From: Pseudohalioglobus sediminis
GTDB taxonomy: Bacteria > Pseudomonadota > Gammaproteobacteria > Pseudomonadales > Halieaceae
Assembly (NCBI RefSeq): GCF_008370495.1
Contig: NZ_VTUX01000004.1
Coordinates: 1-64,000 of the forward strand
Length of the DNA stretch: 64,000 bases
Direction: 5' to 3'
Shown here: in pieces, positions 31,840 to 50,318 of the stretch
How the letters are laid out: each line of letters starts with the position of its first letter
Numbering within the stretch: the stretch's first letter is position 1
Notes under the pieces: model-generated
What the model saw: the letters and a program-made list of their open reading frames with translations, nothing else
What the model was told of the DNA's origin: nothing
The model's database searches: none
Program-made: the position numbers and the translations under genes

Positions 31840-32205
31840 ATGCGTAAGACTAGCGAACTCATATGGCAGGATACCCAACATCAGGAGTTGTTCGCGATAC
31901 TGGATGACCTGGGCCGGGCTGGCTCTGGCGCGGATGTCATTAAGCGTTTGCAACTGTATACGGAAACGCATTTCACCCTGGAAGAGCGCTACATGGAGAT
32001 GCTGAACTACCCGGGAATCGCAGTACACCGAAAAGCGCACGATGATTTCCGTGAAGAAATCTCGTTGTTGGCACGCGAGGGTGATGCGTTTGACGACGAC
32101 TTCCGCAAGCTTGTTTCCACCTACCTAAGCGAATGGCTCAAACTGCACGTATTTGGAATTGACAAGAAGCTTGAGGAATTCATTCTTCAGTCAGCGTGCA
32201 AGTAA
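31840..32205 (+). CDS. Bacteriohemerythrin
   Basis: A 121-residue single-domain hemerythrin. The diiron ligands are seen in order: the first His in QDTQHQELFAIL, His and Glu in YTETHFTLEERYM, the pair in HRKAHDDFREE, and HVFGIDKKLEEF supplying the last His and Asp. Its length and spacing match single-domain bacterial hemerythrins. It can bind O2 and sometimes NO or iron, and such genes often accompany NO or microaerobic systems. The position between mobB and an FNR-controlled cytochrome suits a role during low-oxygen nitrate metabolism, which is an inference. Confidence 0.93.
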   Translation: MRKTSELIWQDTQHQELFAILDDLGRAGSGADVIKRLQLYTETHFTLEERYMEMLNYPGIAVHRKAHDDFREEISLLAREGDAFDDDFRKLVSTYLSEWLKLHVFGIDKKLEEFILQSACK

Positions 32206-32276: not shown

Positions 32277-32290
32277 TTGATCCGCATCAA
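32277..32290 (+). promoter_or_regulatory. FNR box of the lipoprotein cytochrome c gene
   Basis: TTGATCCGCATCAA is a perfect FNR half-site pair (TTGAT-N4-ATCAA). A TAGGGT -10-like hexamer lies at 32313-32318, placing a transcription start near 32325 and the box centre near -41.5. This is the standard class II activator position. The leader would be ~75 bases to the ATG at 32400. Confidence 0.85.
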
Positions 32291-32399: not shown

Positions 32400-32873
32400 A
32401 TGAATATGTTGCTCAAAGCGGTTGTTCTGGGTTTGGCTATCGCCGCTCTTGCTGCCTGTGGCAAGGACCCAAAAAGTGCGGCCGGATTCACATTACCGGA
32501 AGGGGATGCCGAGCAGGGCAAGGCGAATTACATCGCGTTTGGCTGCAATGCCTGTCACCAGCATAGCGAGGTGCCGCAACTGCAGTCGCCCCTCGCTGAC
32601 CAGGTATCCATCAAACTGGGCGGAGAAACCGCGCGAGTGCGGACCTATGGCGAATTGGTCACGTCGGTGATCAACCCATCTCATCGCATCGCCAAACACA
32701 AGCCAGGGGCTGTTGACGCTTCCGGTGAGTCGACGATGGTGACCTTCAACGACGTCATGACGGTTACCCAGATGATCGACCTGGTTGCCTTCCTGCAGCA
32801 GAGCTACGAGTTAAGCCCCTATCGCCACACGGTCTACCCGGTTTACTGGCAGCCTGAGGTCAAGGGCAAATAA
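32400..32873 (+). CDS. Lipoprotein monoheme cytochrome c
   Basis: A 157-residue protein with the signal and lipobox ALAACG. The mature region has one haem c motif, FGCNACHQHS, and a likely axial methionine in STMVTFNDVMTVTQMIDLV. The N-terminal region begins KDPKSAAGFTLPEGDAEQGKANY, and the end is WQPEVKGK. A Shine-Dalgarno AGGGAG is close to the start. It lies under a perfect FNR box and next to the nitrate island. It could pass electrons to a periplasmic acceptor or donor during anaerobic growth; its redox partner is unknown. Confidence 0.9.
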   Translation: MNMLLKAVVLGLAIAALAACGKDPKSAAGFTLPEGDAEQGKANYIAFGCNACHQHSEVPQLQSPLADQVSIKLGGETARVRTYGELVTSVINPSHRIAKHKPGAVDASGESTMVTFNDVMTVTQMIDLVAFLQQSYELSPYRHTVYPVYWQPEVKGK

Positions 32874-32913: not shown

Positions 32914-34656
32914 CTAGTTGGCCCACCACAGTACCAGTACGGCGATCAGCAGCGACAACCAGAAAAACGACAACGCCTTCCAGAAGAACACCGTATCGGC
33001 AGCGCCCTCGGGGGTTCGTCCCGCTTTGATGAATTCCGGGTTGGGATGCTGCAGGTCATAGATGAACGCGTCCAGGGTGTCGTAGCGCAAGTCGGGGTCG
33101 TTACAACAACCCTTCTGTAACGCCTGGTCGAACCAGACGGGGATGATATCGCGGTGTTCGAAGCTGGGCGTGTACTCCAGTTCATAAAATTCCTGCAGCG
33201 TCTTGCAGCGCTCCATTTTGTTGCCGTAGGGCAGCTGTCCCCCGGTAAACATCTCGTAGGCAATTACGGCCAGCGAGTAGATATCACCCTTGACATAGGT
33301 ATTGATGCCGAAGCGGTAGGAAGGGTCTGCATAGTCCAGCGTGCCCAGAGCAATTTCCCGCTCGAAGGGGTTGAAAATCTCCTGCAGGCCGGGGGCATAC
33401 ACAGCGCCAAAATCGACAATCTTGATTTTTCCATCCGGCAGGATCATGACGTTTCCGGGCTTCAGGTCCTGATGCACGATCTGTTGTTCGTGCATGGCCG
33501 AAAGTCCGGCGGCGATATCGAGAATAATTCTGGCAACAGCGCTGGGTCGCGGTTCAGGATTTTCAGCAATCCATTGTTGCAGAGTGATGCCCGGTACCTT
33601 TTCCATCAGGTAATAGAGAAAGGTTTTGCGCCCGTTGCGCGGCGTAATAATACGCACCACCCGCGGGTCGCTGATGCGGCTGCCTATCCACTCTTCGGCT
33701 ATAAACCGCTCGATGTAAGCGGGGTCGTCGACGTAGGAAGCAGAGGGCGTCTTCATCACCAGCTCTTTGCCGGTGGTTTCGTCACGGACGACGTACAACT
33801 GGGAGCGTTCGCTGGCCCACAGCTCTTCGAGTACCTCGTAGCCATCCAACTTGAGACCGGGATACAGCTCCGGAGGAAAAGGCAGCCTGGTAAGGCGTTC
33901 GCTGAAGTCAGCCTTTTCCTCAACGCCCAGATTGTCGACCCGCAACACGCAGGCACTGAGATTGTCGTCGCTGCCGGCTTCCAGTGCCTGTTCAATCAGC
34001 AGGCGACAGGCCTCATCCGGATTATCCCGGTGTTGGTCAACTATGGATTTGATTGTCTCGTCGTCGACAAAATCGTGTATACCGTCGGAGTCGATGTAGA
34101 AAATATCGCCCTGCTGCACCTCCACCGTACTGCAGTCGATGTTCAGTGTGGTGTCCATGCCCATGGCGCGGATCAGATACTGCTTTTCGTCGGAAATGCT
34201 GGCAACGTGGTCCCGCGTCAATTGCTCGAAACGGCCGTCCGCGGAGAGCCGATAGATACGACTGTCGCCAGCGTGAAACAGGTAGGCGAGGTGCGACTTG
34301 ATGACGACGAGGCTGAGGGTACAGATATAACCCCTGGATTCATCGGGCATGTGGCGCCCGAGGTCGTAAAGCTCACGATTGAGCGCGGCGAGGGTTTTCT
34401 GTACCGCGTGTTTGACACTCCAGAGCTCAGGCGTCTGGAAGTAATCCTTCAGTACGACTGCTACTGACCTTTGCGCCGCTTCACGGCCCGCCTCTGCGGA
34501 GCTGACGCCGTCGGCAACAACGGCAACCGCGCCTTTACTGGCGAGGAGCGCATCTTCGGGAATCAGAAAGCCCACTGCGTCTTCGTTGAGCTGTTTCTTG
34601 CTGCCCTTGTCCGTCCGGGCGGCGAAGCTTGCGCTGAACTTGTGAGCACTTTCCAA
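32914..34656 (-). CDS. Membrane-anchored PP2C phosphatase / Ser-Thr kinase fusion
   Basis: A 580-residue bifunctional protein starting at TTG 34656. A PP2C phosphatase (about 1-245) keeps its metal-binding motifs: LNEDAVG, VADGVSSAEAG, AGDSRIYRL, DSDGIHD and DDNLSACVL. A protein kinase (about 270-535) follows: invariant lysine in LVMKTPS, HQDLKPGN for the catalytic loop (Arg of HRD is Gln) and VDFGAVYAPG. The glycine-rich loop is degenerate (ELWASERSQL). A C-terminal transmembrane helix (FFWLSLLIAVLVLWW) anchors it. It follows the NarK/NasA-type gene after 54 bases on the same strand. Similar phosphatase-kinase proteins accompany nasA in pseudomonads. Confidence 0.92.
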   Translation of the reverse strand: MESAHKFSASFAARTDKGSKKQLNEDAVGFLIPEDALLASKGAVAVVADGVSSAEAGREAAQRSVAVVLKDYFQTPELWSVKHAVQKTLAALNRELYDLGRHMPDESRGYICTLSLVVIKSHLAYLFHAGDSRIYRLSADGRFEQLTRDHVASISDEKQYLIRAMGMDTTLNIDCSTVEVQQGDIFYIDSDGIHDFVDDETIKSIVDQHRDNPDEACRLLIEQALEAGSDDNLSACVLRVDNLGVEEKADFSERLTRLPFPPELYPGLKLDGYEVLEELWASERSQLYVVRDETTGKELVMKTPSASYVDDPAYIERFIAEEWIGSRISDPRVVRIITPRNGRKTFLYYLMEKVPGITLQQWIAENPEPRPSAVARIILDIAAGLSAMHEQQIVHQDLKPGNVMILPDGKIKIVDFGAVYAPGLQEIFNPFEREIALGTLDYADPSYRFGINTYVKGDIYSLAVIAYEMFTGGQLPYGNKMERCKTLQEFYELEYTPSFEHRDIIPVWFDQALQKGCCNDPDLRYDTLDAFIYDLQHPNPEFIKAGRTPEGAADTVFFWKALSFFWLSLLIAVLVLWWAN

Positions 34657-34674
34657 GGCATCAGCCCCCGATCT

Positions 34675-34699
34675 GGCCGGCCCGCGCGAAGTGGGCCGG
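34675..34699 (-). other. Intercistronic hairpin between nitrate transporter and kinase/phosphatase genes
   Basis: CCGGCCC (34677-34683) pairs with GGGCCGG (34693-34699). Two further inner pairs, including a G-U wobble, extend the stem to nine bases with a five-base loop. It lies 11 bases past the transporter stop and 20 bases before the kinase start, with no T-run. It is more likely to adjust message stability or downstream expression than to terminate. Confidence 0.6.
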
Positions 34700-34710
34700 T
34701 ATGGGTCTAC

Positions 34711-36186
34711 TCAGGTCACATCAATCAGTTGCACGGTACCATCGGGCAGCACCTCGGTCATCTTGCCCCTGGGTTCGTCGAGGAACATCACCAGTGCGAA
34801 CACTACACCTGCGGAGGCGGCAATGACGAGGAAGAAGGTGCTGTAGTCCACGAAGGAAAGCACGGTGAGGTAAGTCACCGCACCGACGTTACCGTAAGCG
34901 CCCACCATGCCGGCGATCTGCCCGGTCATGCGCCTTTGCACCAGGGGCACCATGGCAAACACGGCACCCTCACCGGCCTGCACGAAGAACGAGCAGCTCA
35001 TCGTGGCCATCACCGCCAGTGGTATCCACCAGCCGCCATCTATCTGACTGAGCAGGAAGTAGCCCGCAGCCAGTCCGCAAATCAGCACGATCATGGTCTT
35101 GCGACGGCCGAAGTGGTCGCTCATCCAGCCGCCCGTAGGCCTGGCAACAAGGTTCATGAAGGCAAAGCCGGAAGCAAGCAGGCCGGCTTTTACCGGGTCA
35201 AGCCCCTCAAAGGTTTCGAGGAAGAACAGCGGCAGCATTGACACCACCGCCAGTTCAGAGCCGAAGGTCGCAAAGTAGGACCAGTCCAGGATCGCCACCT
35301 GCTTGAACTTGTAGCGCTGCATTTCCGGCACGCCTTCCTTCAGGTGTTCGTAGTTCACTTTCCATATCTGACTGGTCTGGAACAGGTAGAGCGCGAACAG
35401 GCCGGCGTAGATGCCATAGCAGGCATTGTCGGTCAGCAGCCCCAGGTTAGACGGCGAGAGTTTCCAGGTAAGCACGGCGAGGGCAACGTACATCGGGATA
35501 TTCATTGCCAGCAGGAACCAGAAATCACCCCAGTTGCTTACCTCGAGCCCACCAGATTTCTTTGGCTTGAAGTAGGTCGACCCCTTGGGAGTGTCACGTA
35601 CATTGATGTAATAGATCACGCCGTAGATGGCAGCGATGACGCCGGTGAGGCCAATGGCGTAGCGCCAGCCATCTTCCCCGCCGAACAAAAGCGCGATAGT
35701 CGGTAGGGTCATGGCGCCGGCGGCTGATCCGAAATTACCCCAGCCGCCATAAATGCCTTCGGCGAGGCCCACCTGTTTGGCGGGGAACCACTCGCCCACC
35801 ATGCGGATGCCAATCACGAAACCGGCACCGACAAAGCCCAGCAGGAAGCGGAATATCGCCAGCTGTTCGTAGCTGTTGGCGGTGGCAAACAGTACGCACA
35901 TAAACCCGGACAGTATCAGCAGTCCACTGTACACATGACGGGGCCCAAACTTGTCTACCAGTATGCCGATTACGATGCGTGCAGGAATGGTCATGGCGAC
36001 GTTGAGAATCATCAGGGCCTTGATCTGTTGCCCGCTGAGGTCGAACGCCTCTTTGATAAAGGCCAGCATCGGCGCGTGACTGAACCAGACCACGAAAGTG
36101 AGGAAAAATGCGAACCAGGTGAAGTGCAGCGTCCTGATACTCGGATTCTTCAGATCCGTTAGCGGTATACGATGCTCGGACATCAT
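34711..36186 (-). CDS. NarK/NasA family nitrate/nitrite MFS transporter
   Basis: A 491-residue protein with twelve hydrophobic segments. The nitrate-porter signatures are present in both halves: [13 protein letters not shown] and [15 protein letters not shown]. The TM1 region [19 protein letters not shown] and the VEWFP-like GEWFPAKQ are typical of NasA-type nitrate/nitrite importers. Its ATG is 24 bases after a predicted FNR-dependent start, and a NarL site lies further upstream. The kinase/phosphatase gene follows. Distinguishing assimilatory uptake from respiratory exchange is not possible from sequence; its FNR/NarL promoter suggests the respiratory use. Confidence 0.9.
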
Positions 36187-36244: not shown

Positions 36245-36258
36245 TTGATGTAGATCAT
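36245..36258 (-). promoter_or_regulatory. FNR box of the NarK/NasA-type transporter gene
   Basis: On the minus strand this reads ATGATCTACATCAA, a near-perfect FNR box (TTGAT-N4-ATCAA with one mismatch). The matching -10 is TATATT (36222-36217), placing the start near 36210 and the box centre at -41.5. The leader to the ATG at 36186 is ~24 bases. Confidence 0.85.
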
Positions 36259-36295: not shown

Positions 36296-36311
36296 TACCA
36301 CTAAAGGAGTA
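36296..36311. promoter_or_regulatory. NarL/NarP 7-2-7 binding site
   Basis: TACCACTAAAGGAGTA matches the NarL palindrome TACYYMT-N2-AKRRGTA at 13 of 14 defined positions (one pyrimidine position is A). It is centred 52 bases upstream of the FNR box, at about -93 relative to the predicted start, resembling FNR-NarL dual promoters of enterobacterial nitrate genes. Confidence 0.75.
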
Positions 36312-36425: not shown

Positions 36426-37064
36426 CTATTTCTGTTGGTCGACCATCCACACCGCGGCTTCCACGCGAGAGCGGAAGCCGAGCTTCTTCAGCAGGTGCTT
36501 GACGTGTACCTTGACCGTGGATTCGGCGATGTCCAGGCGCCGGCCAATCAGTTTGTTGCTGAGCCCCTCGGCAATGTATTTGAGTATCTGCAGTTCGCGA
36601 CGGGTCAGTTGGTTGAGGTCCTGTTGTTGCTTGTCCTGGCGAAAGGAGGAGGCCAGAATCTCGGTCAGCTGTTCGCTCAACACCATCTTGCCGGAGCAGG
36701 CCTGGTGAATGCTGTCTACCAGCAGCTCGGGTTCAGAGTCCTTGAGCAGATAACCGTCGGCGCCGGACTTCAGTGCGGCTATGACGTCGGCGCGATCGTC
36801 GGACACCGTGAATACAACGATGTGCGCGGCGATGCCGGCGTCGCGCAGGGTGGAAAGGGTTTCGATACCGTCCATACCGCGCATGCTCAGATCCAGCAGT
36901 ATCAGGTCCGGGTCCAGTGCCTGGGCCATCTTCACCGCGTCGTTGCCATTAGCCGCCTCGCCGATCACTTCGAGTCCATCTTCCAGTTCCAGCAACTGGC
37001 TGACGCCCTTGCGCAGCAGAGGATGATCATCCACCAGGAGGATAGTGTTTACCGCTTCAACCAT
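36426..37064 (-). CDS. narL: Nitrate/nitrite response regulator NarL
   Basis: A 212-residue response regulator from ATG 37064. The receiver domain has the phosphoacceptor in LDPDLILLDLSMRGMDG, the acidic pair in LLVDDHPLLRKG, and KSGADGYLLKD near its end. The LuxR-type HTH (about 145-205) has LTRRELQILKYIAEGLSNKL and AESTVKVHVKHLLKKLGFRS. The start at 37154 seen in the longer frame would add an Arg-rich, non-coding-like stretch. It follows narX by about 29 bases in one operon. It should bind the TACYYMT-type site at 36296. Confidence 0.95.
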   Translation of the reverse strand: MVEAVNTILLVDDHPLLRKGVSQLLELEDGLEVIGEAANGNDAVKMAQALDPDLILLDLSMRGMDGIETLSTLRDAGIAAHIVVFTVSDDRADVIAALKSGADGYLLKDSEPELLVDSIHQACSGKMVLSEQLTEILASSFRQDKQQQDLNQLTRRELQILKYIAEGLSNKLIGRRLDIAESTVKVHVKHLLKKLGFRSRVEAAVWMVDQQK

Positions 37065-37093
37065 CGCTTTGTCTCTACCGGTCCTCGTTGTGC

Positions 37094-38950
37094 TCAGTGA
37101 TAGGCGACGCCCGTCGCCGCGGGCACACGCAATTGTACACGGGTGCCGCCGCAATCGCGCACGCTATATTCAAGACTGCCCTCCAGCCGTTGGGCGCGCT
37201 CACGCATCGTATATAGCCCGTAATGGTGCTCCTTCTCCGGCTGCTCGGGTATGCCCACACCGTTGTCATCAATAGTGAAAACAAGGTCACCAGTGCTACC
37301 TTGCTCACAGCGCAGGGCAATTGTGCTGGCGCCGGCGTGCTTCACCGCGTTGTTGAGAGCCTCCCGTACCATGTGCAGTACATGGATATCACCGTTGGGT
37401 CCCAGGCTGGCACTCTCGATGTTGTACTCCAGCGTTACCCGGGCGGGGCTCTGCTCGTCGAATTCCTGCACCGCGTGCTGTAGCGCCGTGCGCAGGTCTG
37501 GGGCGTCCAGCTTGACCCTGAAGGTGACGAGCAATTCCCGGAGATGCTTGTAGGCGGCGTTGATGCCCTCCTGCAGATCGGCGATGGCTTCGTCGACCCG
37601 CTCCTTCTGAAAGTCTCCATCGACGAGTTTTTTAAGGCGGGCGGTCTCCATCTTCATGTACGACAGTGACTGCGCCAGTGAGTCGTGCAATTCCCGCGCT
37701 ATGGTACTGCGCTCTTCCAGCAGCATAACCCGGTGTTCCTGTCCCAGGTTGCGATGGAAGGCAAAGGATGTTGACAGGGTTTCGGCGACCGTGTTGAGGA
37801 GCTGGTTCTGCCAGGGTAACAGTTTCTCGCCCTCGTGCGGCTTGATGTACAGGAATCCGTAGTTGTCATTACGACTGCCGATCGGCAGTGAGATACCCGG
37901 CGTGTGGGATTTTTCCAGATGCGCAGGGGATAGCGCACAGACGGCGCAGTCGCCGTTGCAGTGGTTCTCCTCCTCGGCACTGGTACCGAGGTGGTTGTAA
38001 TTGAGGTAGTTGGGCTCGGCATTCACGCAGAGGTTGATGGTTTCTACGTTGGCAACCTTCTGCAGTTCCGAGAGGAATACCCGCAGCAGTCTCTCATCAT
38101 AGGGGCTGGAGGAGATTTCCCGCGAAGTCTTGTAGAGAAAATACAGTGCCTGGTTGGAGCGATGCAATTCCCGGGTACGCTCCTCAACCTGAACTTCAAG
38201 GGTTCGATACTGCGCCTGCAAGCTGGCGGTCATGGTATTGAATGAGGCAGCGAGTACACCCAACTCGTTTTCCGGGTAGTGGCTTACGCGGTGACTGAGG
38301 TTACCGCGCTCCACGTCCTCGGCCGCTTTGACCAGCCTGCGCAATGGAATCACGAAATTGTTGTCTGCGCGCATGATCAGGTAAAGCACGATAAACACGA
38401 TAAGGAAAATACTAATCGCCTCGGTCATGCCCAGCAGTTCGATCTTGCCTTCGTTCTCGCGCTGCAGGTGGGTCACCATGGTGTCGATGTCCGCCACCCA
38501 GCGGTCCAGTTCACTGTTGTAGCGGGTGTAGCTGTCCTGCCAGGAAAGCCCGCCCTGCAGTGTCGCCTGTAGCAGGGGTGACATACTGAGTTGCCAGTTG
38601 TCGCGAACTTGTTGGTAGCTCTTGCTCAGTGGCACGTTGTTGGCGTCGTGGACGACCAGGGGAATGATTGACGTGCCGAGTTTTTGCGCAAATTCGTCCA
38701 TTTCCGCGGTGAGTTGCTGCAGTGTCTCTTTTTCGCGGCCCAGGGCGGCCAGCGCCAGATGATTGCTGATGCGATAGGACTGCATGCGCAATGAGCCGGC
38801 GAGGTTTATCGCCTCCGCATCGTTCTGGGTATTGACGGTCACGTAGACCGACAGGCTCATGCTGGCCAGGGCCATACCGGCGATCACCGCCATGGCCAGA
38901 AATACCTGAAAAATTACTGAGCGGTAGATCCGCTTCCCTGTAAGGGGCAT
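37094..38950 (-). CDS. narX: Nitrate/nitrite sensor histidine kinase NarX
   Basis: A 618-residue membrane sensor kinase. Two transmembrane helices (about 12-35 and 175-195) bracket a periplasmic domain with the P-box AEAINLAGSLRMQSYRI, the nitrate-binding element of NarX/NarQ. A HAMP region follows (VIPLRRLVKAAEDVERGNLS). A central cysteine cluster NHCNGDCAVCALSP is typical of NarX. The kinase core has TIARELHDSLAQSLSYMK with the phosphoacceptor histidine, an N-box VREALNNAVKHA and a G1/G2 region TIDDNGVGIPE. It is divergent from narK1 and forms an operon with narL. Confidence 0.95.
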   Translation of the reverse strand: MPLTGKRIYRSVIFQVFLAMAVIAGMALASMSLSVYVTVNTQNDAEAINLAGSLRMQSYRISNHLALAALGREKETLQQLTAEMDEFAQKLGTSIIPLVVHDANNVPLSKSYQQVRDNWQLSMSPLLQATLQGGLSWQDSYTRYNSELDRWVADIDTMVTHLQRENEGKIELLGMTEAISIFLIVFIVLYLIMRADNNFVIPLRRLVKAAEDVERGNLSHRVSHYPENELGVLAASFNTMTASLQAQYRTLEVQVEERTRELHRSNQALYFLYKTSREISSSPYDERLLRVFLSELQKVANVETINLCVNAEPNYLNYNHLGTSAEEENHCNGDCAVCALSPAHLEKSHTPGISLPIGSRNDNYGFLYIKPHEGEKLLPWQNQLLNTVAETLSTSFAFHRNLGQEHRVMLLEERSTIARELHDSLAQSLSYMKMETARLKKLVDGDFQKERVDEAIADLQEGINAAYKHLRELLVTFRVKLDAPDLRTALQHAVQEFDEQSPARVTLEYNIESASLGPNGDIHVLHMVREALNNAVKHAGASTIALRCEQGSTGDLVFTIDDNGVGIPEQPEKEHHYGLYTMRERAQRLEGSLEYSVRDCGGTRVQLRVPAATGVAYH

Positions 38951-39123
38951 TTATCCATCCTCGCTGGCCGTCTACCACCAATAACTCGAACTCCCCTCGG
39001 AGCTGGACAGGTATAGGGCTGGCAATCCGTATCTGACTGTTATTTAAGAATAAAAACAAAAACAGGCAACTACTACCTTGGGGGTAATTTGCGCCGTTGC
39101 CGTGTGTCACTGGCGTTGGGCGC

Positions 39124-39137
39124 TTGATCCAGATCAA
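39124..39137 (+). promoter_or_regulatory. FNR box of the narK1K2GHJI operon
   Basis: TTGATCCAGATCAA is a perfect FNR box. Its centre is at 39130.5; a class II start would fall near 39172, with the AT-rich TAGTTTAT (39159-39166) in the -10 region and an 18-base leader to the narK1 ATG. Upstream, ACAGGTA (39007-39013) and GGGGGTA (39080-39086) are weak NarL-like heptamers only. Confidence 0.85.
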
Positions 39138-39189
39138 CCCTCGGCATGGGGAAGATATTAGTTTATGCGTCGACAGATTGAAATTGACT

Positions 39190-40461
39190 ATGACGACCAG
39201 ACGCCAACAACAGCAAGTTTCCCTTACCGCCAGCACCGTGGCTTTTGCCGCGTCGTTTGCTGCATGGACCCTGTTTTCGATTCTCGGCCTGGAAATTCGC
39301 GAGCAGTTGCAGCTCAACTATACCCAGTTTGCGCTGTTGCTCGTGGCCCCGATCCTCAGTGGCGCGTTGGCGCGCCTGCCCTCCGGCATACTGGCGGACA
39401 TCTATGGCGGCCGCCGGGTGATGTTCCTGGAAATGGCCATCGTCGGCGTGGCGTTGCTGTTCTATCCGCTGGCTAGTGTTTACTGGCACTACCTGTTGTT
39501 CGGCGTGGTCATCGGCCTGGCTGGCGCGACATTTTCCGCCGGCATCGCATTTGTTTCGTCCTGGTATGACAAGCGGCGGCAGGGAACAGCGATGGGCATA
39601 TTTGGCGCCGGCGATGCAGGCGCCGCCATTACCAATCTGGTCGCGCCGCTGGCTGTTATCCAGTTTGGCAGTGACTACGTGCCGGTGGCATACGGCGCGG
39701 TACTGTTGTTCACTGCCGTGACGTTCCTGTTTCTCAGCAGCGAAGATCCGATTCACCAGGCGCAGGCCAAAGTGTCGCGCCCTCTCGCCGAGGAGTTGGC
39801 CCCGCTCGGCAAGCTGCGGGTCTGGCGTTTCGGCCTCTATTACTTTTTCGTTTTCGGGGCATTCCTTGCCCTCACCCTCTGGCTGCCGCAATTCTATGTG
39901 GAGCAGTATGGCCTGGACCTGAAAGCCGCATCCTTCGCCACCCTCCTGTTTACCGTGCCCGCGGCGTTGGTGCGCGCGCTGGGGGGTTGGTTCGCGGATT
40001 ATTTTGGTGCTCGCACTATCAACTGGATGGTGTTCTGGATCTGCCTGGTCTGCCTGTTCTTTCTGTCTTATCCGCCGACCACCATGACCATCCATGGTAT
40101 CGAAGGCGACCTGTCACTGAATATTGCAACGCCGATGTGGTTATTCACCGCGCTGGTGTTCGTGATGGGCGTGGCTATGGGCTTTGGCAAGGCCAGCATC
40201 TACAGAATCATTTACGACTACTTCCCGGGGCATATGGGTGCCGTGGGAGGGGCGGTAGGCATGATCGGCGCACTGGGCGGTTTCGCGCTGCTGCTCCTGT
40301 TTGGCGCGGCCAACGACATCACCGGTATTCGCACCTCATGCTTCATGCTGCTTTATGGCGGCCTGGCGGGCTGCATGATCCTGATGCATTTCGCCATTAA
40401 GCGCGACGAGTTTCGCCAGCGCTATGCGCAGGCCCAGGCCGACGAATTTTTATCCCTTTAG
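39190..40461 (+). CDS. narK1: NarK1-type nitrate/proton symporter
   Basis: A 423-residue MFS transporter with twelve hydrophobic helices from ATG 39190. N-terminal features are LFSILGLEIREQLQLNYTQF and LARLPSGILADIYGGRR, and the second-half signature is GAVGGAVGMIGALGGF. The first nitrate-signature loop reads GIFGAGDAGAAIT, with aspartate where asparagine is common. NarK1 proteins import nitrate with protons, so nitrate can start respiration before nitrite exchange. It is followed at 27 bases by narK2 and heads the nar operon. The open frame extends upstream to 39097, but across the FNR box. Confidence 0.9.
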   Translation: MTTRRQQQQVSLTASTVAFAASFAAWTLFSILGLEIREQLQLNYTQFALLLVAPILSGALARLPSGILADIYGGRRVMFLEMAIVGVALLFYPLASVYWHYLLFGVVIGLAGATFSAGIAFVSSWYDKRRQGTAMGIFGAGDAGAAITNLVAPLAVIQFGSDYVPVAYGAVLLFTAVTFLFLSSEDPIHQAQAKVSRPLAEELAPLGKLRVWRFGLYYFFVFGAFLALTLWLPQFYVEQYGLDLKAASFATLLFTVPAALVRALGGWFADYFGARTINWMVFWICLVCLFFLSYPPTTMTIHGIEGDLSLNIATPMWLFTALVFVMGVAMGFGKASIYRIIYDYFPGHMGAVGGAVGMIGALGGFALLLLFGAANDITGIRTSCFMLLYGGLAGCMILMHFAIKRDEFRQRYAQAQADEFLSL

Positions 40462-40488: not shown

Positions 40489-42102
40489 ATGTCTGATATC
40501 AAAGAGTGGAACGTCGAGGACGACCAGTTCTGGGAGTCGACCGGCAAGAAGGTTGCCAATCGAAACCTGTGGATTTCCATACCCAGCCTGTTATGTGGTT
40601 TTGCGGTGTGGCTGTACTGGGGCGTGATCACTGTACAGATGCTGAACATCGGGTTTCCGTTCGCCAAGTCGGAACTGTTCACCCTCATGGCAATAGCGGG
40701 CCTCACCGGCGCAACCCTGCGCATTCCCAGCAGTTTTTTCATCCGCCTGTTTGGTGGTCGTAACGCCATCGTCTTCACCACTGCGCTACTGATGTTGCCA
40801 GCCCTGGGTGCGGGTATCGCACTGCAGGACAAGAACACGCCGCTCTGGGTATTCCAGCTGCTGGCGCTGCTCTCGGGCTTTGGCGGCGGTAACTTTGCCT
40901 CCTCCATGTCCAACATCAACTTCTTCTTCCCCAAGCGCCAGCAGGGCCTGGCGCTGGGCCTGAACGCTGGTCTGGGCAACTTCGGTGTGACCACCATGCA
41001 GATTCTGGTGCCGCTGGTCATGACCTTCGGGCTGTTCGGTGCGCTCGGTGGCGATTCCATGACCCTGCAACAGACCTCGGGCACCCTCATCGGCAAAATC
41101 CCCGAGGGCACTGAAACCTATATCCAGAACGCCGGTTTCGTCTGGTTGTTGTTCCTCGTACCCCTCGCCTTTATCGGCTGGTTTGGCATGAACAACATCC
41201 GTACCGAGGAAGTCTCTCCCGATATTCCTTCGGCTCCTGTCGGGTTCGCACTGATGTCCGGCATGCTGCTGATCGGCTTTGTCATGGCCGCCATTGGTCT
41301 CTGGCTGATGCTGCCGGAGGCGGCCAACGGGTCCGGATTCGGCGTGCCCAAGGAGGTCGTACTGGTGCTGGTTATTGCCGGTACGGTACTTGCACTGAAG
41401 ATGCTGCCCGGCCAGATCAAGGGCAATTTGCAGCGTCAGTACAAGATCTTCAACAACAAACACACCTGGGTGATGAGCATCATCTATACCATGACCTTTG
41501 GCTCGTTCATTGGCTTCAGCGCTGCCTTTCCGCTGGCGATCAAGGTGATATTCGGCTACCAGCACATCATGGTGGAAGGGGTGATGACGCATGACACCGT
41601 CAATGTTAACGGCCCCAGCGCCCTGATGTTTGCCTGGATGGGGGCGTTTATCGGGGCCCTGATTCGACCTGTGGGTGGCTGGATTTCGGACAAGGTCGGT
41701 GGTGCGCTGGTTACCCAGATCTGCTCCGCGGTGATGGTCGGCAGTGCCCTCGGCGTAGCCTACTACATGAAGGCCGCATATAACTCCGCGACACCGGAAG
41801 AGTTCTTTGTGCCCTTCCTGGTTCTGTTCCTGCTGCTGTTTGCCGCGACCGGCATCGGCAACGGTTCCACGTTCCGTACCATCGCCATGGTGTTCCCGAA
41901 AGAACAGGCCGGTCCCGTGCTGGGATGGACATCGGCAGTAGCCGCCTATGGCGCCTTCTACATTCCCAAAGTTATCGGTGAGCAGATCAAGGCCACCACA
42001 CCGGAAGTCGCCCTGGTTGGATTCGCAATTTTCTATGCAATTTGCCTGGTTATTAACTGGTGGTTCTACCTGCGCAAGAGCGGCGAATTCTACAACCCGT
42101 AG
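40489..42102 (+). CDS. narK2: NarK2-type nitrate/nitrite antiporter
   Basis: A 537-residue MFS transporter with twelve helices plus a long central loop (about 185-215). The signature is GLNAGLGNFGVTTMQILVPL in the first half and QAGPVLGWTSAVAAYGAF in the second. It is longer than NarK1 and matches NarK2-type nitrate/nitrite exchangers. The start follows GAGGAAAGACT. Nitrate enters and nitrite leaves during respiration; a neighbouring NarK1 symporter covers the initial import. It is the second gene of the narK1K2GHJI operon, 63 bases before narG. Confidence 0.93.
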   Translation: MSDIKEWNVEDDQFWESTGKKVANRNLWISIPSLLCGFAVWLYWGVITVQMLNIGFPFAKSELFTLMAIAGLTGATLRIPSSFFIRLFGGRNAIVFTTALLMLPALGAGIALQDKNTPLWVFQLLALLSGFGGGNFASSMSNINFFFPKRQQGLALGLNAGLGNFGVTTMQILVPLVMTFGLFGALGGDSMTLQQTSGTLIGKIPEGTETYIQNAGFVWLLFLVPLAFIGWFGMNNIRTEEVSPDIPSAPVGFALMSGMLLIGFVMAAIGLWLMLPEAANGSGFGVPKEVVLVLVIAGTVLALKMLPGQIKGNLQRQYKIFNNKHTWVMSIIYTMTFGSFIGFSAAFPLAIKVIFGYQHIMVEGVMTHDTVNVNGPSALMFAWMGAFIGALIRPVGGWISDKVGGALVTQICSAVMVGSALGVAYYMKAAYNSATPEEFFVPFLVLFLLLFAATGIGNGSTFRTIAMVFPKEQAGPVLGWTSAVAAYGAFYIPKVIGEQIKATTPEVALVGFAIFYAICLVINWWFYLRKSGEFYNP

Positions 42103-42165: not shown

Positions 42166-45100
42166 ATGAGTCATTTTCTTGATCGACTGCAGTTTTTCAA
42201 GAAGACCCGGACCGGAGAGTTTGCCGACGGGCACGGTGAGACACGCAACGAGAACCGCGAGTGGGAGAACAGCTACAGACAACGCTGGCAGCACGACAAG
42301 ATCGTGCGATCCACCCACGGCGTAAACTGTACCGGCTCCTGCAGCTGGAAGATCTACGTCAAGAACGGGCTGATCACCTGGGAAACACAGCAGACGGACT
42401 ACCCGCGTACGCGCCCCGACCTGCCCAATCACGAGCCACGGGGCTGTCCTCGCGGCGCGAGTTACTCCTGGTACATCTACAGCGCGAATCGGGTCAAGTA
42501 TCCGAAGGTACGTAAACCCTTGCTCAAGTTGTGGCGCGATGCGCGGGCAAAGTACAGCAACCCGGTAGAGGCCTGGGGTTCTATAGTCGAGGATGAAGAG
42601 AAAGCCCGCTCCTATAAGAGTGCGCGCGGGCTGGGCGGATTTGTGCGCTCATCCTGGGATGAGGTAAACGAGATTATTGCCTCGGCCAATGTCTACACCG
42701 CCAAACAGTATGGCCCGGACCGGGTGATCGGCTTCTCGCCGATTCCGGCCATGTCCATGGTGTCCTACGCCGCCGGTTCGCGCTACCTCTCGCTGATGGG
42801 CGGTGTGTGCATGAGTTTCTATGACTGGTACTGCGATCTGCCGCCGGCGTCGCCCATGACCTGGGGTGAACAAACCGATGTGCCGGAGTCGGCAGACTGG
42901 TACAACTCCAACTACATCATAGCCTGGGGTTCCAATGTACCCCAGACCCGCACCCCCGATGCTCACTTCTTCACCGAGGTGCGCTACAAGGGCGCCAAAA
43001 CCGTTGCCATTACCCCGGACTATTCCGAGGTCGCCAAGCTGACGGACATGTGGCTCAACCCGAAGCAGGGTACCGACGCTGCCCTGGGCATGGCCTTCGG
43101 CCATGTGATTCTGAAGGAGTTCCACTTGCAGAAGCCCAGTGAGTACTTCACTGACTACGTGCGACGTTATACCGACAGTCCCATGCTGGTGCTGCTGGAA
43201 GACTTCGACAAGGGCGTCAAAGCCACCCGTTTCCTGCGCGCCTCCGATCTCGGTGGCGAGCCCGGCGGTAACAACAACCCGGAATGGAAAACCATTGCCC
43301 GGGACGAGATCAGCGGTGAACTGGTATCGCCAACCGGGGCCATTGGCTATCGCTGGGGCGAGCAGGGCAAGTGGAATATCGAGCAGAAGAACGGTTCCAC
43401 GGGAGCCGAGATCAAGCTGCAACTCTCGCAGATCGAGTCCACCGATTGCGTCGCCTCGGTGGCCTTCCCTCACTTCGCGGCTGACGACTCCAATGAATTC
43501 TGGAACGCCTGTGATCAGGAAAAAATCCTTTATCGCAATGTGCCGGCCTCGGAGATCACATTGGCCGACGGTTCCTCCGCACGTGTCGCCACGGTCTATG
43601 ACCTGATGATGGCGAACTACGGCATTGATCGCGGGCTGGGGGGTGAAGATGTCGCCAGTGATTACAACCAGGACATCGCCTATACCCCGGCATGGCAGGA
43701 AAAAATCACCGGTGTCTCCCGGGAAAAAGTCATCCAGGTCGCTCGCGAGTTTGCCGACAACGCAGATCGCACGCGCGGCCGTTCCATGGTTATCGTCGGC
43801 GCGGCGATGAACCACTGGTACCACATGGACATGAACTACCGTGGCCTGATCAACATGTTGATGATGTGTGGCTGTGTCGGCCAGACCGGCGGTGGCTGGG
43901 CGCACTATGTGGGCCAGGAAAAGCTGCGGCCTCAGACCGGCTGGTTGCCACTGGCCTTCGGCCTGGACTGGAGCCGCCCGCCGCGGCAGATGAATTCCAC
44001 CTCCTTCTTCTACAACCATTCCTCCCAGTGGCGTCACGAGAAAGTGAGTGTGCATGATGTGCTTTCGCCGTTGGCTGACAAGGGCGAGATGCCGGAGCAC
44101 ATGCTGGACTACAACATCCGTGCTGAACGCATGGGTTGGTTGCCCAGCGCACCGCAGCTGAACTGTAATCCGCTACAGGTAACCCGTGATGCAGAAGCCG
44201 CAAGTATGGATCCCAGGGATTACCTGGTAGAGAAGTTGAAGGACGGCGGTATCCGCTTTGCCGCGGAACAACCGGACAACCCGGACAACTTCCCGCGCAA
44301 CCTGTTCATCTGGCGCTCGAACCTGTTGGGCTCCTCCGGCAAGGGGCACGAGTACATGCTCAAGTATCTGCTGGGTACCAAGAACGGGGTAATGAACGAC
44401 GATAACGGCATGACCGGCGGTCTCATCCCCGAGGAGATCGACTTCGAGTCACGGGGGCATGAGGGCAAGCTTGACCTGGTGACCACGCTCGATTTCCGCA
44501 TGTCTTCCACCTGCGTGTATTCGGATATCGTGTTGCCGACGGCGACCTGGTACGAGAAAGACGATCTCAACACCTCCGACATGCACCCCTTCATCCACCC
44601 GCTGTCGAAAGCCACCGACCCGGCCTGGGAGGCCCGGTCTGACTGGGATATCTATAAAGGCCTGGCGAAAAAATTCTCCGAGATCGCGGCCATCGAGGGC
44701 AATCTGGGCGTGGAAAAGGATATCGTCACGGTCCCCACACTGCATGACACGCCTGGAGAACTCGCCCAGCCATTCGAAGTACAGGACTGGAAGCGTGGCG
44801 AATGCGATCTCATACCAGGCAAAACTGCTCCCAATATGGTGGTGGTTGAACGCGACTACCCGAATCTCTACAAGAAGTTCACCTCGGTCGGCCCTTTGCT
44901 GGAGAAGCTGGGGAACGGTGGCAAGGGCATCAGCTGGAACACCGATGAAGAGGTGGAACTGCTGCGCCAACTGAACTACACGGTCGAGGAAGAGGGTGTC
45001 AGCAAGGGACAGCCGGCTATTAACACCGCGATCGATGCGGCAGAGGTCGTGCTGACGCTGGCCCCGGAAACCAACGGCAACGTGTCAGTTAAAGCCTGGG

Positions 45101-45936
45101 ACGCGCTGGGTCAGTTCACCGGCCGTGACCACAAGCACCTGGCCGAACCCAAGCACGATGAGAAGATCCGTTTCCGCGATATCCAGGCGCAGCCGCGCAA
45201 GATCATCTCCTCACCAACCTGGTCCGGCCTGGAGGACGAGCATGTCAGCTACAACGCCGGCTATACGAATGTGCATGAGTTTATTCCCTGGCGCACCATC
45301 ACTGGCCGCCAGCAGTTTTACCAGGACCATACCTGGATGCAGGCTTTTGGCGAGCAATTTGTTTCCTATCGCCCGCCCATCAACACCAACACCATTCACC
45401 AGGTGAAGGAAAAACGCGCCAACGGTGAAAAGGAGATTGTGCTGAACTGGATTACACCGCACCAGAAGTGGGGCATCCACAGTACCTACTCCGACAACCT
45501 GTTGATGCTGACGCTGTCACGGGGTGGCCCCATTATCTGGCTCAGCGAGATCGATGCCGGGGAGGCCAACATAGAGGATAACGACTGGGTAGAGGTGTTT
45601 AACGCCAACGGCGCAATCACCTGCCGTGCGGTGGTCAGCCAACGCGTGAAGCAGGGCATGGTGATGATGTATCACGCCCAGGAGCGCATCGTTAACGTGC
45701 CGGGTTCCGAGACCACCGGCACACGCGGCGGGCATCACAACTCGGTGACCCGTACGGTGATGAAGCCAACACACATGATTGGCGGTTACGCACAACAAAG
45801 CTACGGCTTTAACTACTACGGCACCGTTGGCTGCAATCGCGACGAATTTGTGGTGGTCCGCAAGATGAGCAAGGTGGACTGGTTGGACGGTTCCGATACC
45901 GACGACCTGCCCCAGCCTTTACCCCAGGATATTTAA
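42166..45936 (+). CDS. narG: Respiratory nitrate reductase alpha subunit NarG
   Basis: A 1256-residue Mo-bisMGD subunit, close to the E. coli length of 1247. The N-terminal FS0 cluster motif STHGVNCTGSCSWKIYVKN is intact, and RPDLPNHEPRGCPRG follows. The molybdenum-ligand region is DWYCDLPPASPMTWGEQTDV. Other conserved blocks are GMAFGHVILKEF, MNYRGLINMLMMCGCVGQTG and RGGHHNSVTRTVMKPTHMIG near the end. It reduces nitrate on the cytoplasmic face using quinol electrons through NarH and NarI. The start follows GAGAGAGTAAAGCC. The mobB gene upstream provides part of its cofactor pathway. Confidence 0.98.
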   Translation: MSHFLDRLQFFKKTRTGEFADGHGETRNENREWENSYRQRWQHDKIVRSTHGVNCTGSCSWKIYVKNGLITWETQQTDYPRTRPDLPNHEPRGCPRGASYSWYIYSANRVKYPKVRKPLLKLWRDARAKYSNPVEAWGSIVEDEEKARSYKSARGLGGFVRSSWDEVNEIIASANVYTAKQYGPDRVIGFSPIPAMSMVSYAAGSRYLSLMGGVCMSFYDWYCDLPPASPMTWGEQTDVPESADWYNSNYIIAWGSNVPQTRTPDAHFFTEVRYKGAKTVAITPDYSEVAKLTDMWLNPKQGTDAALGMAFGHVILKEFHLQKPSEYFTDYVRRYTDSPMLVLLEDFDKGVKATRFLRASDLGGEPGGNNNPEWKTIARDEISGELVSPTGAIGYRWGEQGKWNIEQKNGSTGAEIKLQLSQIESTDCVASVAFPHFAADDSNEFWNACDQEKILYRNVPASEITLADGSSARVATVYDLMMANYGIDRGLGGEDVASDYNQDIAYTPAWQEKITGVSREKVIQVAREFADNADRTRGRSMVIVGAAMNHWYHMDMNYRGLINMLMMCGCVGQTGGGWAHYVGQEKLRPQTGWLPLAFGLDWSRPPRQMNSTSFFYNHSSQWRHEKVSVHDVLSPLADKGEMPEHMLDYNIRAERMGWLPSAPQLNCNPLQVTRDAEAASMDPRDYLVEKLKDGGIRFAAEQPDNPDNFPRNLFIWRSNLLGSSGKGHEYMLKYLLGTKNGVMNDDNGMTGGLIPEEIDFESRGHEGKLDLVTTLDFRMSSTCVYSDIVLPTATWYEKDDLNTSDMHPFIHPLSKATDPAWEARSDWDIYKGLAKKFSEIAAIEGNLGVEKDIVTVPTLHDTPGELAQPFEVQDWKRGECDLIPGKTAPNMVVVERDYPNLYKKFTSVGPLLEKLGNGGKGISWNTDEEVELLRQLNYTVEEEGVSKGQPAINTAIDAAEVVLTLAPETNGNVSVKAWDALGQFTGRDHKHLAEPKHDEKIRFRDIQAQPRKIISSPTWSGLEDEHVSYNAGYTNVHEFIPWRTITGRQQFYQDHTWMQAFGEQFVSYRPPINTNTIHQVKEKRANGEKEIVLNWITPHQKWGIHSTYSDNLLMLTLSRGGPIIWLSEIDAGEANIEDNDWVEVFNANGAITCRAVVSQRVKQGMVMMYHAQERIVNVPGSETTGTRGGHHNSVTRTVMKPTHMIGGYAQQSYGFNYYGTVGCNRDEFVVVRKMSKVDWLDGSDTDDLPQPLPQDI

Positions 45937-45948
45937 GGAGTTGCCGCA

Positions 45949-47496
45949 ATGAAAATTCGTTCACAAGTCGGCATGGTGTTGAACCTCGACAAATGTATTG
46001 GCTGTCACACCTGTTCGATCACCTGCAAAAACGTCTGGACTTCCCGCGAAGGCGTGGAATACGCCTGGTTCAACAACGTTGAGACCAAGCCTGGAGTGGG
46101 TTTCCCCAACGAGTGGGAAAACCAGGAAAAATGGAACGGCGGCTGGGTGCGCAAGGGCAATGGCAAGATCGAGCCGCGCATAGGGGGTAAGTGGAAGGTA
46201 CTGTCAAAGATTTTCAACAACCCGGATATGCCGAAGATCGAGGACTATTACGAGCCCTTTGATTTCGACTACCAGCATCTACACACAGCGCCGCAGGGAA
46301 AGCACCAGCCAACAGCGCGGCCGCGCTCGCTGGTGAGTGGCGAGCGTATGGAGAAGATCGAGTCCGGGCCCAACTGGGAGGAGATCCTCGGTTCGGAGTT
46401 TTCCAAGCGCTCCCGCGATGCCAATTTCGAGAAAGTGCAGAAGGACATCTATGGAGAGTATGAGAATACCTTCATGATGTATCTGCCGCGCCTGTGCGAG
46501 CACTGCCTCAACCCGACCTGCGCGGCCAGCTGTCCGTCCGGCGCGATCTACAAGCGGGAGGAGGACGGTATAGTCCTGATCGACCAGGACAAGTGCCGCG
46601 GTTGGCGCATGTGTGTGTCCGGTTGCCCCTACAAGAAGATTTACTACAACTGGAAATCCGGAAAATCGGAAAAGTGTATTTTCTGTTATCCGCGAATCGA
46701 GTCGGGGCAGCCCACCGTGTGCTCCGAGACCTGTGTTGGACGCATCCGCTACCTCGGTGTGTTGCTCTACGACGCGGACAAGATACAGGAAGTTGCTGCA
46801 ACCGAATCGGAACAGGACCTTTACAAGAAGCAGCTGGAAATCTTCCTTGATCCCAATGATCCGGAGGTCATTGCCCAGGCACGTCGGGATGGTATCGACG
46901 ATTCCGTGATCGAGGCTGCGCAGCAGTCGCCGGTGTATAAGCTGGCAGTGGACTGGCAGCTTGCACTGCCACTGCACCCCGAGTACCGCACATTGCCCAT
47001 GGTCTGGTATGTGCCCTCGCTCTCGCCCATTCAGCAGGCGGCCGACGCGGGCCATATCGGGAACGACGGCGTTATTCCCGACGTTGACAGCCTGCGTATT
47101 CCGCTCAAGTACCTCGCCAATCTGCTCACCGCCGGCGATGAAGAGCCGGTAAAACTGGCCCTGAAACGATTGCTGGCCATGCGCGCCTACAAACGCGCAG
47201 AAACCGTGGATGGGGTCACTGACTTGCAGGTGCTGGAGAACGTCGGTCTCAGCGAGGCCCAGGTAAAGGAGATGTATCGCTACCTGGCCATCGCCAACTA
47301 TGAGGATCGCTATGTTATCCCCAGCGCTCATCGTGAAGAAGCCATGTCGGATGCCTTCGCGGAGCGCGGCGGTTGCGGCTTCAGTTTCGGTAACGGCTGC
47401 TCCTCTGGCAACAACGAGGTAAATATGTTCGGCGCCAAGCGCACCAACCGTCGCGACATCATTGACACGGTCCAGGTAGAGGAGTGGAAACCATGA
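45949..47496 (+). CDS. narH: Respiratory nitrate reductase beta subunit NarH
   Basis: A 515-residue iron-sulfur subunit. Its cysteine clusters are LDKCIGCHTCSITCKNVW, LCEHCLNPTCAASCPSGAIY, DKCRGWRMCVSGCPYKK (the tryptophan marks the [3Fe-4S] cluster) and KCIFCYPRIESGQPTVCSET. The C-terminal ~200 residues contain MVWYVPSLSPIQQAADAG. It carries electrons from NarI haem to NarG. AAGGAGTTGCCGCA precedes the start. Its stop overlaps the narJ start (ATGA), so the two are translationally coupled. Confidence 0.97.
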   Translation: MKIRSQVGMVLNLDKCIGCHTCSITCKNVWTSREGVEYAWFNNVETKPGVGFPNEWENQEKWNGGWVRKGNGKIEPRIGGKWKVLSKIFNNPDMPKIEDYYEPFDFDYQHLHTAPQGKHQPTARPRSLVSGERMEKIESGPNWEEILGSEFSKRSRDANFEKVQKDIYGEYENTFMMYLPRLCEHCLNPTCAASCPSGAIYKREEDGIVLIDQDKCRGWRMCVSGCPYKKIYYNWKSGKSEKCIFCYPRIESGQPTVCSETCVGRIRYLGVLLYDADKIQEVAATESEQDLYKKQLEIFLDPNDPEVIAQARRDGIDDSVIEAAQQSPVYKLAVDWQLALPLHPEYRTLPMVWYVPSLSPIQQAADAGHIGNDGVIPDVDSLRIPLKYLANLLTAGDEEPVKLALKRLLAMRAYKRAETVDGVTDLQVLENVGLSEAQVKEMYRYLAIANYEDRYVIPSAHREEAMSDAFAERGGCGFSFGNGCSSGNNEVNMFGAKRTNRRDIIDTVQVEEWKP

Positions 47497-48221
47497 TTGA
47501 ACTTAAAGTAATTGCCCGGCTGCTCGACTACCCGTCGGTGGAAGTACATGATCACGTGGACGAGTTGAAGGCAATTCTGTTGGACAACAGAATTCTCGGT
47601 TTCAAACTCAAGGCCAAGCTCTGCGCCTGGCTTACCGCGTTCTCGGGCAAAGACCTGATGGAGTTGCAGGAAACCTACGGCGGATTGTTTGACCGCGGTC
47701 GTGCCACATCACTGCTCCTGTTTGAACACGTACACGGAGAGTCCCGCGACCGCGGACAGGCCATGGTTGACCTGATGGAGCTCTACGGCAGCCATGGCTT
47801 TGAACTCAATGCCCGGGAACTGCCGGATTACATTCCGATGTACCTCGAGTACCTTTCCTGCCGGCCGCGGGAGGAAGCGGAAAACGGCCTACTGGATGTC
47901 GCCCATATTCTCGCCCTGGTCGGTGCAAGACTGGAAGACCGTGGTAGCGAATACGGGCTGTTGTTTCGTGCTTTGCTGGAAATTTGCCAGGCCGACATCA
48001 CTGTCGACGAGTTCCTGAAACAGGCCTCCAGTGAGGAACGGGATGACAGTCTCGAGGCCCTGGACAAAATCTGGGAAGAAGAAGCCATCACCTTTGGCCT
48101 GGACGATGACGCGGAGCCTTGTCCGTCTGCGCACCCCAGTGCCGAGGTGAACGAAAATCAACATACCACGCCGGTGCACTTTGTCGATGCCAGTTCACCG
48201 CCTGTCAGCGCCAACCCTTGA
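47493..48221 (+). CDS. narJ: Nitrate reductase assembly chaperone NarJ
   Basis: A 242-residue chaperone from the ATG at 47493, which overlaps the narH stop. The TorD/NarJ-type helical fold is seen in VIARLLDYPSVEVHDHVDEL, QETYGGLFDRGRATSLLLFE and ARELPDYIPMYLEYLSCRP. The C-terminal third is acidic (FGLDDDAEPCPSAHP) and probably disordered. It inserts the molybdenum cofactor and holds NarGH until membrane docking. An upstream in-frame ATG (47484) would add three residues but lies within narH. Confidence 0.95.
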   Translation: MIELKVIARLLDYPSVEVHDHVDELKAILLDNRILGFKLKAKLCAWLTAFSGKDLMELQETYGGLFDRGRATSLLLFEHVHGESRDRGQAMVDLMELYGSHGFELNARELPDYIPMYLEYLSCRPREEAENGLLDVAHILALVGARLEDRGSEYGLLFRALLEICQADITVDEFLKQASSEERDDSLEALDKIWEEEAITFGLDDDAEPCPSAHPSAEVNENQHTTPVHFVDASSPPVSANP

Positions 48222-48962: not shown

Positions 48963-49021
48963 AAATAATAATGACAAGCCAGGCAACGGGGAGGAGTGGT
49001 ACTCCCCGCCCATTATTATTT
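48963..49021. other. Composite stem-loop between narI and porin genes
   Basis: An outer stem AAATAATAATG (48963-48973) pairs perfectly with CATTATTATTT (49011-49021). An inner stem CGGGGAG (48987-48993) pairs with CTCCCCG (49002-49008) around an eight-base loop. The outer stem ends two bases before the porin Shine-Dalgarno CAGGAGTG (49023-49030). The inner hairpin could terminate or attenuate the nar operon message. Confidence 0.75.
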
Positions 49022-49039
49022 ACAGGAGTGACTCACACT

Positions 49040-50278: not shown

Positions 50279-50294
50279 CGGGTGACAGGCCGGG

Positions 50295-50318
50295 CCACTC
50301 GCGCTCCGGCGCGGGTGG
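50295..50318 (+). terminator. Probable terminator of the porin gene
   Basis: CCACTCGCGC (50295-50304) pairs with GCGCGGGTGG (50309-50318), with one G-U wobble, around a four-base loop. TTCTATCTTTCT follows directly. It lies 17 bases past the porin stop and 44 bases before nnrS. Confidence 0.65.

Follow-up and report, generated by a model that had tools for sequence, protein, structure and literature searches.

What does an enzyme that joins a protein phosphatase to a protein kinase do directly behind a nitrate transporter gene? The question is raised by a locus of Pseudohalioglobus sediminis in a stretch of 64,000 nucleotides (contig NZ_VTUX01000004.1, positions 1 to 64,000; hereafter the window). 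On its reverse strand, a gene for a 491-residue NarK/NasA-type nitrate/nitrite transporter of the major facilitator superfamily (MFS; 34711-36186) is followed by a gene for a 580-residue PP2C phosphatase-Ser/Thr kinase fusion (32914-34656), with 54 bp between the stop of the first and the TTG start of the second. The transporter matched Pfam MFS_1 and scored 332 bits against the NCBIfam model TIGR00886 (“NarK family nitrate/nitrite MFS transporter”, cut-off 311.7), a curated model that places it in the NarK/NNP nitrate/nitrite transporter family, transport itself being predicted. In the fusion, the Pfam scan found PP2C_2 at residues 21-208 and Pkinase at 283-526. The PP2C domain (residues 15-238; 33943-34614) has the metal-site residues D26, D49, D191, and D231, and the kinase domain (residues 273-537; 33046-33840) has K302, E321, the HQD motif with D397, N402, and D415, with SERSQLY in place of the glycine loop. 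With PP2C N-terminal to the kinase and the catalytic residues of both present, the predicted protein belongs to the PP2C-kinase fusion family. A hydrophobic segment at about residues 560-578 (32923-32979; Kyte-Doolittle 2.26 over 18 residues) forms a predicted C-terminal anchor. Pfam, TIGR00886, hydropathy, and the 54-bp gap thus bore out an earlier reading of the DNA letters (the sequence-only reading), which had described a tail-anchored PP2C-kinase fusion behind a NarK/NasA-type gene.

We consider it roughly 60% probable that the fusion reversibly phosphorylates its own transporter, with which it is presumably co-transcribed. The sequence-only reading had proposed that reversible Ser/Thr phosphorylation controls nitrate uptake; its proposal, still a prediction, has gained considerably from the gene neighbourhood, a partner-sorted tree, co-occurrence, and conserved catalytic sites. 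An attenuator hairpin between the two genes gave no signal (z -0.64) and was rejected.

Pairing of the fusion with transporters

The fusion was searched at E≤1e-80 in 274 genomes of the window's class, taken as Gammaproteobacteria, and 299 of its phylum, two draws that overlap, and was found in 94 (about a third) and 99 of them, respectively. The class set comprised 100 stretches with 101 of the 111 fusion hits; outside it were the window, G056 (placed in another set), G147, G329, G319, and five fragments. A second set, from other classes, was a hand-picked part of the phylum hits (40 stretches, 41 fusion genes). The named set held the best 80 of 565 confirmed relatives (83 fusion genes), and its loci therefore lean towards the query. 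With 20 fusions from close relatives and six window or plasmid copies, this made 251 fusions. Because the sets overlap in places (G051 and L054 are apparently one genome, as are G283 and L091), the main counts are those of the class sample. Transporter partners were called by BLAST.

In the class sample, 82 of the 101 fusions lay at most 300 bp downstream of a same-strand transporter (NasA 67; formate/nitrite transporter, FNT, 15). Within 1.5 kb the count rose to 87 (NasA 69, FNT 18), with four more within 3 kb and ten without a partner. The other classes gave 31/41 with a transporter at most 300 bp upstream and 37/41 within 1.5 kb (NasA 22, FNT 15), two more being near one and two having none. 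The remaining sets divided into NasA 66, FNT 5, near 2, and none 10 (named set), NasA 10, FNT 2, near 2, and none 6 (close relatives), and NasA 1, FNT 4, and none 1 (window and plasmid copies). Over all 251 fusions, a transporter was upstream of 212 and near 10, none was found for 29, and median gaps between the two genes were 45-61 bp. The survey of gene neighbourhoods that the sequence-only reading had called for thus speaks against a random neighbourhood.

Co-occurrence points the same way. Within the class draw, 94 genomes had the fusion, 78 had NasA at E≤1e-60, and 75 had both (Fisher 5e-45). Among NasA genomes without a fusion hit, G180 has a 150-bit fusion-profile match directly after NasA that runs into the contig end, and G127 has a transporter at 47% identity. 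Conversely, 19 class genomes had the fusion without NasA at that threshold. We read 18 of them: nine have an FNT-linked fusion (G211 also an orphan copy), five have a more distant NasA-type transporter upstream or nearby, G095 combines an FNT-linked copy with an orphan, and no partner was found in three. A test of 43 fusion-negative genomes, part of which came from the class draw, found NasA at E≤1e-40 in one. The pairing of fusion and transporter is more than chance. NasA-fusion loci were also seen in Verrucomicrobiales, Puniceicoccaceae, and Rubritalea (L076, L084, L098); these lie outside Pseudomonadota, and the module is thus not confined to that phylum.

For the fusion phylogeny, identical sequences were deduplicated and rows shorter than 450 residues dropped, which reduced the 251 fusions to 246. 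In the FastTree phylogeny, the FNT-linked copies formed one clade of 48 with a support of 100 (44 with FNT upstream, three near one, one with none), and all NasA-linked fusions and 28 orphans fell outside it. The partner changed between NasA and FNT only once on the tree, compared with at least 36 changes (mean 43) in 300 label shuffles. Either 207 or 216 of the 246 rows carried a label, depending on the labelling, and labels redone by BLAST also gave a single change.

The same one-to-one tendency was found within genomes. The count covers 29 examined genomes with two fusions, among them part of the two-hit genomes of the class and phylum draws. One FNT-linked and one NasA-linked fusion occurred in 21 (including G436, G487, G565, G477, G501, G441, and the named contig L103), and six had one partnerless copy (G211, G217, G145, G295, G095, G370). 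Two loci, L058 and L066, carry two divergent NasA-fusion pairs side by side. A genome can thus have two fusions of the same partner type, still with one fusion per transporter, and the odds given here are unaffected. In L236 (G562:C42, 3708-11109), a single strand carries NasA, a 424-codon gene, a fusion, FNT, and a second fusion; the product of the 424-codon gene had no NCBIfam match and looks porin-like by eye. A fusion thus usually follows a transporter, one to each, an arrangement that a shared enzyme target would not require.

Cyanase lies within 5 kb in 20 of the 48 FNT-clade loci, and we infer from this frequency that the FNT transporter may handle cyanate or nitrite. Clusters of FNT, fusion, and cynS were seen in L034, L035, L093, L103, L112, L130, and L132, those of L034 and L035 being on plasmids typed mobilizable.

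A branch with respiratory-type promoters

The window operon has two predicted regulatory sites upstream. The NarL site, a 7-2-7 pair of inverted heptamers (TACCACT-AA-AGGAGTA; 36296-36311), is the single perfect match to its consensus in the whole window, where 0.01 was expected, and it recurs at a fixed spacing in relatives. The FNR site (TTGATgtagATCAt; 36245-36258) has one mismatch and lies 53 bp, start to start, closer to the gene; the window holds four such one-mismatch sites where 1.1 were expected, and taken alone this site is weak. The pair is convincing because 15 loci, one of them the window, share the 53-bp distance from start to start, and the predicted binding sites of the window thus have the conserved FNR-NarL distance of a respiratory nitrate regulon. 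Scoring used general consensus sequences for NarL, FNR, and sigma-54. The FNR box and strong NarL site named by the sequence-only reading are both retained. The best sigma-54 match in the window has three mismatches, compared with at most one in 54 of 83 nirB-type loci, which is a weak test.

The gene content agrees with this assignment. The genome record is 100% complete, and no NirB above cut-off was found in the whole genome, in keeping with the lack of nirBD noted in that reading; the highest-scoring match (174 bits), a NorW-like reductase, also stays under the NorW cut-off. The four molybdopterin oxidoreductase matches in the genome are NarG, formate dehydrogenase (907.8 bits), and two far under the NasC cut-off, none of them scoring at NasC level. 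By these scores, the window locus does not qualify as an assimilatory nas operon, in which nirBD and nasC would be present.

The promoter scan covered the 150 NasA-fusion loci with readable upstream DNA. All five loci with narX and narL nearby have both an FNR site (at most one mismatch) and a NarL site (at most two). The 83 nirB-type loci gave a sigma-54 match (at most one mismatch) in 54, FNR in seven, and NarL in two at the same stringency; shuffles of their promoters, which preserved base composition only, gave FNR in 1.7%, NarL in 0.5%, and sigma-54 in 0.7%. When FNR sites with up to two mismatches and NarL sites with up to three were admitted, the pair stood exactly 53 bp apart in 15 loci, the next commonest distances occurring six times. 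These 15 loci come from the window genus, Marinobacterium, Amphritea, Neptunomonas, Pseudoalteromonas, Rheinheimera, Arsukibacterium, and others.

On the fusion tree, the FNR/NarL loci, including the window, fell in one clade of 29 tips with a support of 100 (hereafter the respiratory clade), and a single change separated 16 FNR/NarL from 75 sigma-54 loci. Within this clade, FNR (at most one mismatch) and NarL (at most two) were found together in 19 of the 24 readable promoters, the exceptions being L052, L054, L046, L048, and L050, and a sigma-54 match in none of the 24; the spacing deviates in L042, L045, L055, L065, and L073. Outside it, both sites were found in 2/126 promoters and sigma-54 in 76/126. 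No NirB, NirD, or NasC was seen within 5 kb in the 29 respiratory-clade loci, where the contig reaches. In the same loci narX was seen in five, narL in eight, and narG in three, some contigs being short, so that a role in respiration for the whole clade is something we infer. Even the window genus is mixed, with the FNR/NarL-type module in G000 and G005, the nirB type in G002 and G003, and the FNT-cyanase type in G004; G001, G006, and G007 have no full-length fusion and no NasA.

In the window, a switch under FNR and NarL sites would probably be made when nitrate respiration is on. The tie to nitrate respiration that the sequence-only reading had drawn thus holds for one clade, which has FNR/NarL promoters and no nirBD or nasC seen within 5 kb, and does not extend to the family: another clade serves FNT, and the commonest loci are NasA loci mostly of the sigma-54/nirB type.

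A candidate phosphorylation switch and competing explanations

The proposed mechanism would run as follows. The operon would encode both a nitrate/nitrite transporter and an enzyme, tethered to the membrane, that modifies it. One or more Ser/Thr residues that the partner transporter exposes to the cytoplasm would be phosphorylated by the kinase half, the best candidate targets lying in the KGSTYF loop between transmembrane helices 6 and 7 (TM6-TM7) and in the PDGTV tail; the PP2C half would take the phosphate off again. Flux could in this way be turned down or up fast, without new transcription. In this scheme, the substrate, the modified sites, and the direction of the effect are postulated.

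Two conserved segments supply the candidate sites. The predicted TM6-TM7 loop (residues 199-218; 35533-35592, reverse strand) offers S203/T204 and S217, and by the MFS topology rule it would be cytoplasmic; the predicted cytoplasmic C-terminal tail (residues 471-490; 34717-34776, reverse strand) offers T484. Linked NasA share a loop that includes EVTS and a tail that includes EPkG, both expected to face the cytoplasm. The loop motif GS[TVS]Y[FL] occurs in 125 of 143 linked NasA, compared with 4 of 41 unlinked NarK/NasA, and the tail motif DG[TS]V in 122/143 and 4/41, respectively; the stretches of the four unlinked tail carriers also hold a fusion, two of them (L085, L199) apparently being the same genome. 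From this conservation, S203/T204, S217, and T484 may be phosphosites.

The enzyme itself appears competent. Among the 246 fusions, K302, N402, and D415 are invariant and D397 and E321 are each present in 245; all PP2C aspartates are present in 244 and the anchor in 245. In 244 fusions neither domain has lost a catalytic residue; L228 deviates in both domains, and L215 has a D-to-E change at one PP2C residue. HQD prevails (156/198 in the NasA clade, 42/48 in the FNT clade), and the R-S-Q/H stretch that replaces the glycine loop is itself conserved. This conservation points to selection on both activities, and the fusion is probably a dual kinase and phosphatase. The sequence-only reading had called the kinase degenerate: HQD and the missing glycine loop are indeed there, but as family signatures, with the catalytic residues of the kinase kept in 245/246, and kinase decay was rejected. 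The same features, HQD for HRD and no glycine loop, would suit a pseudokinase, the protein then acting as a scaffold or as a phosphatase only. We regard this as very improbable, since the key residues persist over two deep clades, HQD is a non-RD form, and HRD occurs in 37/198 NasA-clade members. A distant relative in L022 (G046; 874-2403) does have eroded PP2C and kinase motifs, with no HxD and the PP2C aspartates lost.

Several observations weigh against the transporter as the target. Of the 251 fusions 29 are partnerless, nine of them with fewer than 600 bases of upstream contig, which leaves about 20 real orphans. For the NasA of G268, neither the 13-kb stretch that holds it nor the genome search at the threshold used yielded a fusion. 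The unlinked set consists mostly of other NarK subfamilies, so that the motif contrast may reflect phylogeny, not the kinase, and two NasA that lack a fusion of their own differ from each other: L284 has the tail Thr changed to Ala and GST retained, and L288 has lost GST and retained the tail Thr. Partner sorting, as read from the tree, is co-inheritance, not direct contact. Finally, over 54 loci the partial correlation of fusion distances was 0.60 with NasA, which when controlled for NirB is moderate support, and 0.45 with NirB.

This last value suits an explanation in which the fusion acts on another protein of the nitrate/nitrite pathway (a reductase, NarL, NirB, or a PII-like regulator), its link to the transporter being one of expression only. 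Bacterial Ser/Thr kinases are known to phosphorylate regulators, and 93 of 169 non-respiratory NasA-clade loci have NirB within 5 kb. However, the constant neighbour is the transporter: NirB is near only 8 of 48 FNT-clade loci, neither it nor NirD or NasC was found within 5 kb of the 29 respiratory-clade loci as far as the contigs reach, and two-fusion genomes mostly have one fusion per transporter. A target of this kind seems to us unlikely. The transporter could also be a sensor whose conformation or flux controls the anchored kinase or phosphatase, which would then signal to a different cytoplasmic target. The partner-sorted tree and the one-to-one arrangement fit coupling in either direction, and the Pfam scan found no sensor domain in the fusion, but no second gene was common to all three clades among the families counted, and we give this arrangement rather little credence.

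If the fusion acts on its own transporter, the pairs may be seen more broadly. We hold it somewhat more probable than its negation that Pseudomonadota and some Verrucomicrobiota have a dedicated phospho-switch for small-anion transporters, typically one per transporter and with both activities in one enzyme, which would have split early into a NasA line, with a branch under FNR/NarL, and an FNT line, and would be, by analogy, what bacteria have in place of the control that a plant PP2C exerts over NRT2.1, which is of the same transporter family.

Related systems and neighbouring genes

Bacterial control of nitrate entry is usually explained by transcription. If the proposal is true, a fast post-translational gate on nitrate/nitrite flux would exist in about a third of the class genomes (94/274), with a bearing on denitrification, nitrite toxicity, and nitrogen use. 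The fusion family would gain a likely job, one that can be tested directly.

NRT2.1 is an NNP-family relative of NarK/NasA, with Ser501 in its C-terminal tail. The Arabidopsis PP2C CEPH dephosphorylates Ser501 of NRT2.1 and so activates nitrate uptake (PMC10944928); such control thus exists for a nitrate transporter. The parallel is functional only: the plant enzymes are encoded by separate genes with an unfused kinase.

As to the window proteins, the transporter belongs to the superfamily of the solved NarK structures (PDB 4jr9, 4u4t; a weak match, E 5e-7) and differs in its loop and tail motifs, which are absent from the NarK1/NarK2-type paralogues examined. The fusion shares its kinase domain with the Hanks kinases PknB and StkP (best solved match StkP 9ruj, E 1e-25) and differs in having a fused PP2C, an altered glycine loop, and no PASTA domain in the Pfam scan. 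Most of the best 25 plasmid relatives bear the RefSeq name “bifunctional protein-serine/threonine kinase/phosphatase”.

PA1782 of P. aeruginosa is probably the same fusion. Its assimilatory nas cluster (PA1783-PA1782-PA1781) has nirB, whereas the window has FNR/NarL sites, narXL, and narGHJ, and its genome yielded neither NirB nor NasC over cut-off. PA1782 appears among Ser/Thr kinases (PMC8560001), and its number is flanked by those of nasA (PA1783) and nirB (PA1781), whose transcripts fall strongly in ntrB/ntrC mutants, by 650-fold and 137-fold in the ntrC mutant (PMC7214821), in line with the sigma-54 class. PP2C-kinase fusions were first reported in Pseudomonas, as an uncharacterised class with the same N-terminal PP2C and C-terminal Ser/Thr kinase (Krupa and Srinivasan, 2005; PMC1262709), with Pseudomonas putida among the carriers listed; the excerpts of that account show no transporter link, and the window member is of the FNR/NarL type. 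The fusion architecture was thus known, and the open-access literature, searched in passages, turned up no account of the pairing with transporters, of an FNT clade, or of a respiratory-type FNR/NarL branch, which does not exclude an earlier description.

The pair stands beside respiratory nar genes, another point on which the sequence-only reading proved right. On the reverse strand are narL (36426-37154; NF007935 320 bits, cut-off 250) and a gene for a NarX/NarQ-like sensor kinase (37094-38950; 438 and 387 bits, under both curated cut-offs). On the forward strand, two further NarK-type transporter genes (39097-40461 and 40489-42102), whose products are without the loop and tail motifs of fusion-linked NasA, precede narG, narH, and narJ for the respiratory nitrate reductase (42166-48221; Pfam matches), after which narI, outside the scan, probably follows. 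A perfect FNR consensus (39124-39137) falls within the start of the listed narK1 reading frame (39097), and the true start is thus probably further downstream. Another (32277-32290) precedes a small gene (32400-32873) that encodes a CxxCH motif and belongs to no Pfam family; a hemerythrin gene (31840-32205) adjoins it. In L231 (G078; 427-1815), what looks by eye like a second Ser/Thr kinase gene precedes a partnerless fusion that sits in a nirB-nirD-nasC cluster. After the nar genes, the window has genes for an Alginate_exp-type porin and NnrS (48971-51576), and NnrS is also near 8 of the 29 respiratory-clade fusion loci.

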